A DNA stretch of 64,000 bases from Streptomyces luteolus (GTDB lineage: Bacteria > Actinomycetota > Actinomycetes > Streptomycetales > Streptomycetaceae), in the NCBI RefSeq assembly GCF_029968015.1, contig NZ_JASCIS010000045.1, positions 1 through 64,000 on the forward strand, in the 5' to 3' direction. Position 1 is the stretch's first letter. Each line of letters begins with the position of its first letter. Of this stretch, positions 13,010 through 17,593 are shown one piece after another. The notes under the pieces were generated by a model, which worked only from the letters and a program-made list of their open reading frames with translations, ran no database searches and was not told the origin of the DNA. Position numbers and translations under genes: made by a program.

Positions 13010-13450
13010 CTACCCGGCTCGCAGGACGTCGACGAGTCCGGAGATCTGTTCTCCGGGGAGGTGCAGCAGAGCGGAGTCGGCGAGGCCGTCCGGTTCGAGG
13101 GGTACGTTCGTACGCCATGAGCCGGGGCGCCAGGGATGCCGGACGCGGTCACCGAATGCCTCGGTCTCGGCGAGCAGAGCGACGAGGCGCATGGCGTCGG
13201 GGATCGGCAGCTTCAGCAGCGCCCATCCACGGTGGTAGACGATGAACCCGTCGCCGCCGTAGCCAAGCGGCTTGGCGCGCAGGGCGCGTACGCCGGCGGT
13301 AGCTTCGCCGACGTCTTGGCAGCAGCCGGTCGTCATGAGGCCAAGGCTCCATAGCTCCCGTACGACGGGTGTCATTTCCTGGTCGATCTGGACACGTTCG
13401 CCGGTCGGGGTCGTGAGCGTCTCGAAGGGGTGGATCGTCGGGTCGGTCAT
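13010..13450 (-). CDS. Hypothetical protein
   Basis: This 146-residue cytoplasmic protein is of no family I can name. A short motif, MTTGCCQD, stands at about residues 39-46, followed by GYGGDGFIVYH (about 63-73). There is no signal peptide or membrane helix. The ATG at 13450 follows AAGGGG. It begins 16 bp after the APH-fold gene on the minus strand, so it is probably the last gene of the transcript that carries the radical SAM enzyme. Confidence 0.6.
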   Translation of the reverse strand: MTDPTIHPFETLTTPTGERVQIDQEMTPVVRELWSLGLMTTGCCQDVGEATAGVRALRAKPLGYGGDGFIVYHRGWALLKLPIPDAMRLVALLAETEAFGDRVRHPWRPGSWRTNVPLEPDGLADSALLHLPGEQISGLVDVLRAG

Positions 13451-13466
13451 CGCGTTCCCCTTGTGG

Positions 13467-14276
13467 TCAGTGTCGACGGTAGGTGGCCCACTGCGTGGCT
13501 GCTGCGGCGAGGCGCTGTATCCATTCGACCTCCGGGGCGTCGGCGGCGATCCCGTCCCAGAGACGTTGTTGTGCGGTGGCGAACACGTCGAGGTTGCGGG
13601 TAGGCGCGGTGGACCAGGCCGGGATTCTGGCAGCCCATCGCTCGGCGTCCTCGGGGGTGTGGTCGGCGGAGATGAGCCAGACGACCCAGCAGGCGGCGTC
13701 GATCCATGCGGCCCCGCGGGTCGGCCACGCCCAGTCGACGACCCTCGCGGCGCCCTCGACCATCAGCACGTTGTCGGGCGTCCAGTCGGTGTGCAGCACC
13801 GTGTCGCCGCGCAGCAGCTCGGCGTCGTCGGGACTGTCGACGTAGTCGGCCAGCCGCTGCTCGATCTGCTTCAGTTCGAGGTCGGCGGGGGCGCGTACCT
13901 GGGACAGAGCGACGATGGCTTCGGCGACGCGGGGAAGGTCACTGGAGCCGGGGCGGTAGTCGGCCGGTCGGCCGTCGAGATACTCGAAGGCGAGCAGGTT
14001 CCACTCGCCGTCGTCGTGGGTCCACAGCAGCCGTGGGGCGAGGGGCGAGACGTACGGGTTGATGGCTGCTTCGCGCTGCTGCGTCCATGCGCGCGGGTGG
14101 TCACAGCGCAGCCCTTTGACGAAGACGCGGCCCGTGCGGGTGTCGAGGACGGTGGCGATCTCGCTGTTCGCGCCCTTGGCGGCGGTCTTGGCGGCGTAGA
14201 TGGGGCCGGTGCGGGCGGCGACGGCGTCGCGAGTGGCGGTGGGCAGGTCGGTCCATTGAAGGCGCATGGTCACCAC
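13467..14276 (-). CDS. APH-fold phosphotransferase
   Basis: This 269-residue protein has the catalytic loop HTDWTPDNVLM (about 161-171) and the metal-binding segment RVVDWAWPT (about 176-184). An N-terminal lobe Lys in GRVFVKGL (about 50) would bind ATP. It is clearly kinase-like. GTG codons at 14276 and 14273 and an ATG at 14267 are all possible starts, and none has a strong Shine-Dalgarno. It lies 70 bp downstream of the short peptide gene on the same strand, so phosphorylation of a peptide-derived product is conceivable, as is an unrelated substrate. Confidence 0.7.
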   Translation of the reverse strand: MVTMRLQWTDLPTATRDAVAARTGPIYAAKTAAKGANSEIATVLDTRTGRVFVKGLRCDHPRAWTQQREAAINPYVSPLAPRLLWTHDDGEWNLLAFEYLDGRPADYRPGSSDLPRVAEAIVALSQVRAPADLELKQIEQRLADYVDSPDDAELLRGDTVLHTDWTPDNVLMVEGAARVVDWAWPTRGAAWIDAACWVVWLISADHTPEDAERWAARIPAWSTAPTRNLDVFATAQQRLWDGIAADAPEVEWIQRLAAAATQWATYRRH

Positions 14277-14346
14277 GGGCGGAGTGTAGGGCTGGAGAAG
14301 GGGCGAGGCCGCCCGCGCGGGGCGGGCGACCTCAACGAGGCGTGGC

Positions 14347-14475
14347 TCAGTACGGGTTGTCGTTCCCGCAGCCGCGCATGACCTCGTTTCCGGCGACGGT
14401 GTCGAGGTCCTCGACGACGTCGAACTCGTCGTCGACCTCGGGCCGCGGGATGATCTCTACGGCGATGGCTGTCAT
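14347..14475 (-). CDS. 42-residue acidic peptide, candidate RiPP precursor
   Basis: This short gene has a very strong ribosome site (GGGAGG, 8 nt before ATG 14475) overlapping the end of the radical SAM gene, so the two are probably translationally coupled. The peptide has a hydrophobic start (MTAIAVEIIP), an acidic middle (EVDDEFDVVEDLD) and a C-terminus RGCGNDNPY with one Cys and a terminal Tyr. Position beside a SPASM-domain radical SAM enzyme, acidic leader-like character and a distinct tail fit a RiPP precursor. It matches no precursor family I recognise. The terminal Tyr and nearby Cys-Gly loosely recall mycofactocin precursors, but no chaperone gene is present. Confidence 0.6.
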   Translation of the reverse strand: MTAIAVEIIPRPEVDDEFDVVEDLDTVAGNEVMRGCGNDNPY

Positions 14476-14489
14476 GGGTGTACCTCCCT

Positions 14490-15617
14490 TCAGGCGTGTT
14501 GGCAGTAGCGGTCCAGGGACGAGCCGGCCTTGCGGTACAGCGTCACGAGCGGCATGCATGTGGTGCATGTCTGCTGGAGCGAGCAGCCACCGCACCCGCT
14601 GTGGCGCTGTAGTGCTCGGTCGGCGATGTCCCCGAGCCGGGACAGACCCGCGACCCCCTCTTGCAGGAGCGGGATCGGATGGTCGCGGGAGATCTTGCAG
14701 ACGCTCGCCAGGCCGAAGGGGTTGACGTTCAACGACGTGTGGCCCGCGTCGCATCCGGTGAACGGGGTCCGGTTGTGCAGGTACTCGGGGGCCTGCTGCG
14801 CGAGGGGTTCGGCGTCGCCGGTGAAGCTCGGCGACATGTGGCTGTACTCGCGCACGCGGGAGGCGTAGCGGGCGGCGAGCTCGCGCATGGCGGGCGCCTC
14901 GTGGGCGTTCTCGCGAGTGACGACGACGCTCAGTGACAGGGGCAGACCGGCCTCCCGCGCGGCATCCAGTCCACGGACGAACTTCCGGTACGCGCCTCGG
15001 CGCCCGGTGAATCCGTCGAACGTGGCCTCGGTGGAACCGTAGACGCTGAGGGTCACGCGGTAGGGCCGTCGGGTGGTGAGCAGGTCGAGGATGTGCGGCC
15101 GTGAGAGGGTCGAGCCGTTGGTGAGGATCTCGACCATCATGCCGAGGTCGTAGGCGACTGCGTACGTCTCGGGAAAGTGCCGGTCGATGGTGCATTCGCC
15201 GCCCCCGAGCTCAAGCCAGAGAACCCCGGCGTCCCGCAGGATGTGCAGCAGCCTCTTGCGTGGCTCCCAGGCGAGGCCCTCGTGCCGCTTGGCGCCGTAC
15301 ACGCAGTGCGTGCACGCCCAGTTACAGCCGTTGTTGACCTCGTACGAGGCTCTGCCGTGCCCGTAGGGCGACGTGCCGCGGATGAGCAGGGCCTCGTCGG
15401 TGGGCCGGTCGGCGAGTTCGAGATCCCAACCGCGTCGCGCGACATTGCGCAGCCACGAGGGTAACGGGACACGGGCGGTGGCGAGTTGGCGTAGTTCGAG
15501 GTAGTGGTGTGCGCTGATCCTGACGCCGCGGGAGCTACCGGGGCGGAGCACGAGGTGCTCGTCGAGGAACGGGCTCACGATCAGGTCATGCGGGGATTCC
15601 CGCCGTGTCTTGGTCAT
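14490..15617 (-). CDS. Radical SAM/SPASM-domain enzyme
   Basis: This 375-residue enzyme has the radical SAM motif Cys98-x3-Cys102-x2-Cys105 (CNWACTHC). The GGE-type SAM-binding segment LELGGGECT comes at about 134-142. The C-terminal SPASM-like cluster includes FTGCDAGH, ASVCKIS, SGCGGC, TCTTC and a final Cys (RYCQHA). SPASM enzymes typically modify ribosomal peptides through auxiliary Fe-S clusters. The ATG at 15617 overlaps the stop of the upstream ATPase gene (ATGA). The putative precursor gene starts 14 bp after its stop. Peptide modification is inferred from family and context. Confidence 0.85.
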   Translation of the reverse strand: MTKTRRESPHDLIVSPFLDEHLVLRPGSSRGVRISAHHYLELRQLATARVPLPSWLRNVARRGWDLELADRPTDEALLIRGTSPYGHGRASYEVNNGCNWACTHCVYGAKRHEGLAWEPRKRLLHILRDAGVLWLELGGGECTIDRHFPETYAVAYDLGMMVEILTNGSTLSRPHILDLLTTRRPYRVTLSVYGSTEATFDGFTGRRGAYRKFVRGLDAAREAGLPLSLSVVVTRENAHEAPAMRELAARYASRVREYSHMSPSFTGDAEPLAQQAPEYLHNRTPFTGCDAGHTSLNVNPFGLASVCKISRDHPIPLLQEGVAGLSRLGDIADRALQRHSGCGGCSLQQTCTTCMPLVTLYRKAGSSLDRYCQHA

Positions 15618-16165
15618 GAGGGCTTCCCCACAGCAGCGAGCCGGAAGGCGGCCCAGACGATCTTTCCGGGGCCGTCGCGCCATGAGGTGCCCCAGTCGTC
15701 GGCGAGCGTCGCGACGAGCAGCAGGCCGCGACCCCGGTCCTCGTCCTCGGTGGCCTCACGTACCTGCGGCGTACGGTCGCTGGCATCGTGCACTTCGAGG
15801 CGCAGGGCGTCGGGCGTGACGGTGACGCAGAGACGGAACATGCGGCCGAGCGGGGTGTGTTGGAGTGCGTTTGTAGCCAGTTCGGACGTACAGACGAGGA
15901 TGTCCTGGGCTCGGTCGTCCGGTACGCAGTCGGTGATCGCCTCGCGTACGAATCGGCGTGACTGCGGTACTGCCCTGCGGGTACGGCTGAACGTCCGCTC
16001 AGTGTGCACGGTCGGCGTCGTGCGGGCTCGTACCGGCTTGGCGAGGGTGGTGGTCGTCATCCGAAGTGCTCCGCTCCCAGGCACGGTGTCCGTGTCACCT
16101 CGGGGAGTATCAGGCTCGGGTGCCGGGCAGTAGGAACATGCCTGCTCCGTCGTCGCGTTCGCCAT
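15614..16165 (-). CDS. RsbW-like ATP-binding protein
   Basis: This 183-residue protein has a GHKL ATPase core: N-box SELATNALQHTPLG and lid GRGLLLVATLADDWGTSW. The ATG at 16165 has an excellent GGAGGG site and adds a 35-residue N-terminal tail with CSYC. A second in-frame ATG at 16060 also has GGAG, so both may be used. Its last base overlaps the radical SAM start (ATGA), making ATPase, radical SAM enzyme and peptide one transcript. It is divergent from the XRE regulator at 16322, a pairing often seen in Streptomyces. Confidence 0.82.
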   Translation of the reverse strand: MANATTEQACSYCPAPEPDTPRGDTDTVPGSGALRMTTTTLAKPVRARTTPTVHTERTFSRTRRAVPQSRRFVREAITDCVPDDRAQDILVCTSELATNALQHTPLGRMFRLCVTVTPDALRLEVHDASDRTPQVREATEDEDRGRGLLLVATLADDWGTSWRDGPGKIVWAAFRLAAVGKPS

Positions 16166-16321
16166 CGTGTCCCTCCGTGGTGTCGTCGTGCGATCACTCA
16201 ACTGGGGAGCAGCGCGGAAGGGCCACGAATCATTCGCTGAGCGCATACGGTGAATCGCGAAGCGAGTACCGCTTCCGCACCGCGGGCTTACGACGCGTAC
16301 CAAGTGGGGGAGAACGAAGCC

Positions 16322-17593
16322 GTGAACTGGTCCTCGCAGCGAATCCGGGAAGCGTCGAGAACAGGCGACTACGGACGGGTTGTGAAGCTCGCTCGAGTTG
16401 AGGCTCGCTTATCGCAGCGCCAGGTCGGGGAGGCGTGCGGGACAAGTCAAGCGGCGGTCTCGCGCCTTGAGGGGAGGGGCGTGGGGTCGTACGACACCGC
16501 CCAATTGGCAAGAGTGGCAAACCACCTTCAGATTCCCCCGCACCTCGTCGGCCTCGCTGACCACACGGCGGCAGTCGCTGCGCGGGGGGATGGAAACGGA
16601 ACCGATGTGGAACGGCGCAGCTTTGTGGGAGGGGTCGCGGCGATCGCCGTAGCGCCTGCGCTTTCCATGGCACCCACGCAGCAGGCCTTCGCGGTGGATT
16701 CCGCGCAGGCGGCCACACTTCGCGCAGCCACGACAGCGTTTCGCCGTCTCGACGGAACGACGCCGTCGCGGCAACTCGTCGACACGGTGCTCTCGCACTT
16801 GCGGTTGACGCAGGCAGTCGCGCAGGACGCGGAGACCGACGAGGAGCGGGCGAGACTCGCGGCAGTCGGCAGTGAAGTCGCGAGCCTCGCCGGGTGGCTG
16901 CACTGGGATATGGGCGACAACGGGTCTGCCCGCACCTGGTACGGAGCATCGATCAAAGCTGCTCGCCGCTCAGCCAACCCCCTGCTCGCTGCCTACCAGT
17001 TGGGCAGCCTCGCCCAGTTCGAGGCGCACGCGGGCAACGCTGCACAGGGGCTCACCCTCACGCGGTCGGCACGTAAGCAACTCGGCGATGGCCTGCCGGC
17101 CATCGCGGATGCATGGTTGTCCGGTGTCGAAGCCTTGGCCCATGCTGCGGTAGGCGATCCAGATTCAACTGATCAAGCACTGACCGCAGCAGCTCGTAGG
17201 GCCGAGCAGGTCAAGCACGAAGAGGCGCCGCCCTGGCCGTGGGTCTTCTCCTTTACTGAGGCGAAAGTCGCAGCACTACGAGTTTCGTGCGGGGCACGTC
17301 TCGGGCTGCCCCGATGGATCTCAGGGGCGCGGGAATCAACGGCTGAAGTGATGGCTCCCGGGCATGACAAGCAACGTGCGCTGCTCATGCTCGACATCGC
17401 GTCGGGGCACCTCGCAGCAGGGCGCCTCGACGGCGCGTTCACCATGGCCGCCCGGGCGTTGGAGACGGGACTGCGGTACAAGTCGGGGCGCATCGTCGAG
17501 CGGGCGCGCGCTGTGCGCCGCTCGTACTCCGGGCCCACGCCCCCTAAAGTCGTGCGCGACTTCGACGACCGCCTGCATGGCGTGTTCCTGTGA
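16322..17593 (+). CDS. XRE-family regulator with TPR-like C-terminus
   Basis: This 423-residue protein has a Cro/CI helix-turn-helix at about residues 25-75 (RLSQRQVGEACGTSQAAVSRLEGRG). A long alpha-helical C-terminal region resembles the tetratricopeptide sensor part of Streptomyces XRE regulators. The GTG at 16322 follows GGGGGAG. Codon 30 (16409-16411) is TTA, the rare leucine codon read by bldA tRNA, so translation is probably tied to development. Divergent placement suggests it regulates the ATPase-radical SAM-peptide operon. The SLOG gene follows after 10 bp. Confidence 0.8.
   Translation: MNWSSQRIREASRTGDYGRVVKLARVEARLSQRQVGEACGTSQAAVSRLEGRGVGSYDTAQLARVANHLQIPPHLVGLADHTAAVAARGDGNGTDVERRSFVGGVAAIAVAPALSMAPTQQAFAVDSAQAATLRAATTAFRRLDGTTPSRQLVDTVLSHLRLTQAVAQDAETDEERARLAAVGSEVASLAGWLHWDMGDNGSARTWYGASIKAARRSANPLLAAYQLGSLAQFEAHAGNAAQGLTLTRSARKQLGDGLPAIADAWLSGVEALAHAAVGDPDSTDQALTAAARRAEQVKHEEAPPWPWVFSFTEAKVAALRVSCGARLGLPRWISGARESTAEVMAPGHDKQRALLMLDIASGHLAAGRLDGAFTMAARALETGLRYKSGRIVERARAVRRSYSGPTPPKVVRDFDDRLHGVFL

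Follow-up and report, generated by a model that had tools for sequence, protein, structure and literature searches.

What does a radical S-adenosylmethionine (SAM) enzyme make when a 42-residue open reading frame (ORF) and a kinase-like gene follow it directly? This question is raised by a locus of Streptomyces luteolus within the first 64,000 nucleotides of contig NZ_JASCIS010000045.1 (positions 1 to 64,000, forward strand; hereafter the window). Its minus strand encodes, in this order, an RsbW-like ATPase, the radical SAM enzyme, the peptide, the kinase-like protein and a 146-amino-acid protein, and a helix-turn-helix (HTH) regulator diverges from them (Table 1). An earlier note, made from the letters of the sequence, had proposed the peptide as the precursor of a ribosomally synthesized and post-translationally modified peptide (RiPP), with an acidic leader and a core containing Cys, Asn and Tyr. 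Conservation of the peptide beside homologous radical SAM genes supports this proposal. On balance, the sequence comparisons favor a RiPP whose core Cys would be crosslinked by the radical SAM enzyme and whose tail Tyr would be phosphorylated by the kinase; we infer this chemistry. The locus looks like a member of an uncharacterised family of modified signalling or antibiotic peptides.

A short peptide gene accompanies the radical SAM gene

The comparison started from 130 loci, made up of the window itself, 9 named records, 60 places in the genus and 60 new places in the family. Matches to the radical SAM protein occurred in 54 of 295 genus genomes, the window's own included (60 other places were taken), and in 78 of 394 family genomes (60 new places taken, 16 partial match rows left out). 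Twelve loci from outside the window's family were added later, giving 142 loci for the survey of neighbouring gene families. Left out were L213, an apparent duplicate of the L010 contig with equal length (3,300 bases), identity and tail, and L205, which is cut by a contig end; L010 itself was entered in the table by hand. Near-duplicates were kept, namely L179/L180 and L193/L194, which are identical radical SAM proteins (one genome with 7% contamination). At E ≤ 1e-60, matches were present in 9 of the 17 genera of the family and in 1 of 236 of a draw from the phylum; at E ≤ 1e-40, they reached 4 of 6 sampled genera of the order and 5 of 130 in the class. The contig of a Frankia metagenome-assembled genome (L010) also carries the locus.

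In 128 of the 130 loci, one and only one ORF downstream of the radical SAM gene ends in a C..[NQ]P[YHFN](x) tail, and the other two lie at contig ends: the peptide of L010 reads through its tail into the contig end, and the contig of L196 ends before any tail. ORF ends of this type numbered 129 in the 76.8 kb downstream of the 130 radical SAM genes versus 9 in the remaining 1.75 Mb of locus DNA (both strands); because the pattern was drawn from these same peptides, it is the near-versus-far contrast in these counts that is informative. The ratio of nonsynonymous to synonymous differences (pN/pS) was 0.11 in the last 12 residues and 0.49 in the leader (320 pairs, which are not independent). The earlier note had proposed to judge the peptide by its conservation beside radical SAM homologues and by coding constraint, and that test favors the peptide, since the pairing is conserved and the tail is constrained. 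Radical SAM enzyme and peptide are very probably a RiPP pair.

In the window, the 42-codon ORF begins 14 nt past the radical SAM stop and is preceded by a strong ribosome site (...GGGAGGTACACCC-ATG), as had been described. The source genome contains a single such locus; a second match is weak (29% identity) and limited to residues 92–250 of the radical SAM protein. Neither the peptide nor the window kinase nor the 146-amino-acid protein had an informative match in Pfam, NCBIfam or PHROGs.

The constrained tail

The 129 peptides represent 122 distinct sequences, in all of which the tail Pro is invariant and preceded by Asn (91) or Gln (31); Val takes this position in one of the later loci (L209). 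Tails fall into two types. Those with one Cys, the window peptide among them, follow C-x-[DNE]-D-N-P-Y, often with one further residue, and all others have two Cys, mostly in the form C-S-C-x-[AGS]-x-[DE]-x-[NQ]-P-x. The Cys type switches once on a tree of 69 radical SAM proteins. Within the last 16 residues of the window peptide, Tyr is the sole residue bearing a hydroxyl group.

Thioethers made by radical SAM enzymes between Cys and Asn (NxxcA) and between Cys and Asp (freyrasin) are described in sections of PMC8326336. A Cys to Asp/Asn thioether in the core is our tentative suggestion here, at slightly under an even chance. A simpler rule of one Asp per Cys was discarded, as it is broken by tails such as CSCSSSDSQPY.

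Terminal tyrosine and the gene downstream of the peptide

Downstream sequence was complete for 127 loci of the first set, in which kinase presence was scored by ORF end. Tyr and a kinase gene occurred together in 87 of them. Another 39 end in His (31), Phe (5) or Asn (3), with a GNAT acetyltransferase gene and without the kinase, and one further Phe locus (L045) has neither gene; exactly one of the two genes is therefore held by 126 of the 127 loci. All 12 loci from outside the window's family have Tyr, of which 8 carry the kinase only, 3 both kinase and GNAT (L210 and L211 from one genome, and L212) and 1 GNAT only (L201). Combined, Tyr was present in 98 of 98 kinase loci, and 40 of 41 kinase-free loci were non-Tyr; 39 of these 40 have GNAT, as does the Tyr exception L201. 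Because L201 breaks the converse, a strict two-way rule between Tyr and kinase was dropped and only the implication from kinase to Tyr holds. The joint presence of kinase and GNAT in three loci suggests a single pathway from which the two enzymes were lost differently. The earlier note had counted the APH-fold gene as a part of the system, which is supported in part, as 98 of the 139 loci with complete downstream sequence have it.

The kinase residues K54, E69, H162, N169 and D181 were kept in all 33 aligned kinases (from the 98 kinase loci), and position 164 is Asp in 30 and Glu in 3. Pfam matches among these 33 at E ≤ 0.01 were to APH (12), TCAD9 (7), RIO1 (5), ABC1 (1) and Pkinase (1), the window protein having none, and a profile search of the PDB gave eukaryotic protein kinases as best hits (E 0.014). 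PF00583 was found in all 23 aligned GNAT proteins (from the 39 loci of the first set that have GNAT). The kinase probably acts on the tail Tyr. We know of no other tyrosine kinase dedicated to a RiPP, so this one would be the first if the assignment is true.

Instead of taking part in maturation, kinase and GNAT might confer self-resistance on the producer by inactivating the mature peptide inside it, in the way that APH enzymes and acetyltransferases inactivate other Streptomyces antibiotics. APH and acetyltransferase folds are typical of antibiotic resistance, the weak PDB matches of the GNAT profile include the nourseothricin (E 0.044) and tabtoxin (E 0.21) resistance acetyltransferases, and the near-strict presence of one gene or the other in the first set would fit such a role. 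Yet both genes lie downstream of the peptide in three loci of two genomes, neither is present in L045, and no exporter family was recognised by eye among the 16 neighbour families that are most widespread in the 142 loci (some families are unnamed, and blastp misses divergent members). We regard self-resistance as somewhat unlikely; it would still make the peptide the substrate of the kinase and differs mainly in purpose.

L045 offers a natural Tyr-to-Phe variant of the window tail (CGNDNPF). No kinase gene was found there, and a homologue of the 146-amino-acid protein comes next on the same strand.

The radical SAM enzyme

The window enzyme contains the radical SAM domain PF04055 (E 1.2e-14). 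Its cluster motif CX3CX2C (C98, C102, C105) was invariant in the 65 proteins aligned from the 130 loci, and so were seven SPASM-type Cys (C289, C307, C342, C345, C351, C354, C372). The pair C351–C354 has the spacing CX2C, the canonical SPASM spacing there being CX3C, and the SPASM model of Pfam did not match the window protein. Among the best 25 of 42 matching NCBIfam models, none reached its cut-off.

Second and third in this ranking were the models of MftC (69.5 bits, cut-off 265) and PqqE (56.5 bits, cut-off 381.35), which raises the question whether the C-terminal Tyr, with which the window tail ends, is decarboxylated or crosslinked into a redox cofactor as in mycofactocin or PQQ biosynthesis. 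Scores so far under the cut-offs led us to reject membership in either family, and peptides paired with the same radical SAM family have His, Phe or Asn after the Pro, or a residue beyond the Tyr. A cofactor of this type is very improbable.

The predicted structure (AlphaFold) was confident over much of residues 10–260, except 96–113. Its best fold match, by both Foldseek and VIA, was SkfB (Z 17.7, r.m.s.d. (root-mean-square deviation) 5.9, 279 residues, model residues 10–326); SuiB reached Z 16.4 in VIA. Both are RiPP maturases, and their matches also cover the N-terminus, whereas BlsE (Z 17.1) and viperins (Z 16.5) match the radical SAM core alone. A defence role as a viperin-like (pVip) enzyme with a neighbouring kinase was also considered, as pVip models of PADLOC match the core at E 3e-11, including one with the name "associated with kinases". 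At 33.5 bits, however, the protein stays far from the NCBIfam viperin cut-off of 180, by which membership was rejected, and seven extra C-terminal Cys and a constant peptide partner do not fit; the chance that this is the right explanation is negligible.

Sections of PMC8326336 describe SkfB and CteB as carrying a RiPP recognition element (RRE) as N-terminal domain. Modelled alone, the N-terminal 85 residues of the window enzyme formed three strands and two or three helices with a predicted local distance difference test (pLDDT) score of 80.5, and this model had no Foldseek match at E ≤ 0.001. The earlier note had described the operon as having no RRE chaperone; the VIA matches of this model, given below, hint at a possible RRE in the N-terminal domain.

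A possible maturation pathway and the evidence against it

In the pathway that we favor, the acidic leader would dock onto the N-terminal domain of the radical SAM enzyme, whose 5′-deoxyadenosyl radical would join the core Cys to the carbon of a nearby Asp or Asn, giving a ranthipeptide-like thioether. The APH-fold kinase would then phosphorylate the Tyr of ...NPY. Lineages with a non-Tyr tail lack the kinase, and nearly all of them have a GNAT acetyltransferase. Control by the neighbouring HTH regulator, whose gene frequently contains a TTA codon, would tie production to development.

Several observations weigh against this pathway. The tail of L201 keeps Tyr without a kinase gene, and no such kinase was detected in its genome at E ≤ 1e-10, in a search that had no positive control. 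Tyr is likewise kept in the tails beside two short kinase ORFs (173 and 196 amino acids). On the tree of 130 radical SAM proteins, tail Tyr and downstream gene each change three times; this leaves two independent pairs when starred branches are counted and three when all branches are, every one concordant, but too few for the pair test, which needs six or more, to reach significance. That tree was made without the 12 later loci, and L201 would be discordant on it. Because only three switches are seen, the link between Tyr and kinase is a lead and not proof. As to the crosslink, the acceptor residues vary (DSQP, ESQP, DANP, DNQP, DDVP, SDNP and DNNP are all found in tails) and the distance from Cys to the acidic residue is unequal between one-Cys and two-Cys tails. 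The model of the radical SAM enzyme is poor past residue 260 (mean pLDDT 63) and for this reason does not test the SPASM domain. Finally, the top three of 995 chains compared with the N-terminal model in VIA were weak, comprising two leader-bound lasso B1 proteins (Z 3.9 and 3.6) and the N-terminus of CteB (Z 3.4), and unrelated chains such as SAGA (Z 3.4) tie with them; since they score equally, the RRE is no more than suggested.

Regulators, TTA codons and a possible signal

Of 120 loci, 108 encode an HTH regulator of one of five profiled kinds no more than 4.5 kb upstream, versus 3 of 88 in the downstream control. By best profile, 86 of 115 regulators belong to three sets whose single tested members match the NsdA/TPR-like family (TPR, tetratricopeptide repeat), one of them over the cut-off; 16 belong to a set whose tested member has HTH and DUF5753 and 13 to a set whose tested member has a weak HTH. 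In the source genome, 34 stretches match the NsdA family in 8.46 Mb. The divergent regulator of the window, already pointed out as containing a TTA codon, has one (position 16409). The radical SAM gene of the window has another (position 15464, codon 52), which had gone unmentioned. TTA occurred in 30 of 130 radical SAM genes and, counting the profile-matched part only, in 52 of 114 regulators, versus 0 of 126 kinase or GNAT genes.

These distributions would suit a peptide that signals between cells or in development and that, once modified, is sensed by the HTH/TPR-like regulator next to it. Such an arrangement has a model in Rgg, an HTH-TPR receptor. Rgg-SHP quorum sensing triggers streptococcal radical SAM RiPPs according to parts of PMC12322106. 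Against this, the regulator is NsdA-like in the window but of unlike kinds elsewhere, so that one RRNPP-like family of HTH and TPR receptors co-evolving with the tail is not apparent, and the neighbour survey recognised neither an exporter nor a protease. We consider direct reading by the neighbouring regulator unlikely. The broader alternative of a signal rather than an antibiotic is possible, although we lean slightly away from it. Quite unlikely, and the boldest version, would be a bldA-linked peptide hormone with a crosslinked tail, switched by Tyr phosphorylation (by acetylation in sister lineages) and read intracellularly by the neighbouring HTH regulator.

Accessory genes and other features of the locus

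Table 1 Features of the locus in the window
Feature	Position	Strand	Basis or remark
Precursor peptide MTAIAVEIIPRPEVDDEFDVVEDLDTVAGNEVMRGCGNDNPY, 42 amino acids	14350..14475, stop 14347–14349	-	ORF, ribosome site, conserved tail
Putative core, the conserved C-terminal 12 residues EVMRGCGNDNPY	14350..14385	-	pN/pS; true extent of the core inferred
Radical SAM maturase with SPASM-type Cys, 375 amino acids	14490..15617	-	CX3CX2C at 98–105 and seven C-terminal Cys
Residues 10–79 of the radical SAM enzyme, predicted small domain, possibly RRE	15381..15590	-	Structure prediction, weak Z
APH/kinase-fold protein, 269 amino acids	13467..14276	-	Catalytic K54, E69, H162, D164, N169, D181
RsbW-like HATPase, accessory, overlaps radical SAM start	15614..16165	-	Start codon at 16165 is the analyst's choice
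NsdA-family HTH and TPR-like regulator, TTA at codon 54	16250..17593	+ (divergent)	206 bits versus cut-off 75
Accessory ORF, 146 amino acids	13010..13450	-	Homologues in 10 of 130 loci whose radical SAM enzymes are close to that of the window

The overlap of ATPase stop and radical SAM start that had been read from the sequence is present as ATGA at 15614–15617 of the minus strand, and the kinase-like and the small ORF indeed follow the peptide. As defining parts, the ATPase and the small gene did not hold up: the former was found in just 67 of 130 loci (1 of 130 in the control) and the latter in the few loci given in Table 1. Neither is a core part of the system. The absence of a transporter had also been pointed out, which agrees with the survey of neighbour families.

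Genes resembling ydcF (13 loci) and wbqC (11 loci), named by eye, recur upstream, for example at L062 and L070. A gene resembling tyrosine recombinases, likewise named by eye, is found close by in 11 of the 142 loci, L044 among them, a hint of mobility. Genome G887 has three radical SAM–peptide–kinase loci (L159, L165, L175) with different tails. One 6.14-Mb contig carries the locus close to each of its ends, as L210 and L211 (16.6 kb and 6.134 Mb), an arrangement reminiscent of terminal inverted repeats. The kinase and GNAT matches are weaker in the first copy, and the radical SAM match of the second ends at residue 316. Split or partial radical SAM matches resembling decayed copies of the locus were seen in four further genomes (G684, G776, G747 and G067).

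Relation to known systems

Ranthipeptides and sactipeptides share with this family a small N-terminal domain, the radical SAM core, a Cys-rich C-terminus and a short neighbouring precursor with core Cys and Asp or Asn; here, in contrast, a kinase or GNAT gene is near-constant, no exporter or protease was recognised in the neighbour survey, and the best 25 of 42 NCBIfam matches are below cut-off. Mycofactocin likewise combines a SPASM radical SAM enzyme with a short precursor, MftA, which has Cys-Gly near a C-terminal Tyr. Unlike there, the Tyr is variable here, the enzyme scores far below the MftC cut-off, and by eye no mycofactocin-type genes were recognised among the common neighbours.

The phosphotransferase of class V lanthipeptides and thioamitides targets Ser/Thr, whereas the link of the kinase here is to Tyr, and no HopA1-like partner was recognised among the neighbour families. 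Sections of PMC7794033 assign a PF01636 phosphotransferase to RiPP maturation in these classes (sprPT), where it pairs with a HopA1-like protein for dehydration. The streptococcal RaS-RiPPs with Rgg/SHP also have an HTH regulator, a radical SAM enzyme and a short precursor side by side, as generally known and as given in parts of PMC12322106; the present loci differ in belonging to Streptomyces and relatives, in their several kinds of regulators and in that no exporter was recognised.

Six tail strings were not found in the literature searched, with supplements and subscription papers outside the search, and DDNPY and CGNDNPY were not found in the main texts of the publications searched. Since supplements and subscription papers were not covered, the family may be listed elsewhere, for instance among the candidate families of PMC7794033. 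The class is known, and this family is apparently uncharacterised.

Implications

The radical SAM family is common in the genus and in the family, and the locus is compact, so that its four or five genes lend themselves to direct testing. The genetically defined pair of kinase and tail Tyr gives a handle on whether tyrosine phosphorylation occurs in RiPPs, and the many natural core variants could be used for mapping the site choice of the radical SAM enzyme. If the peptide is a signal, it would open up peptide signalling in Streptomyces, for which the TTA codons already hint at developmental control.

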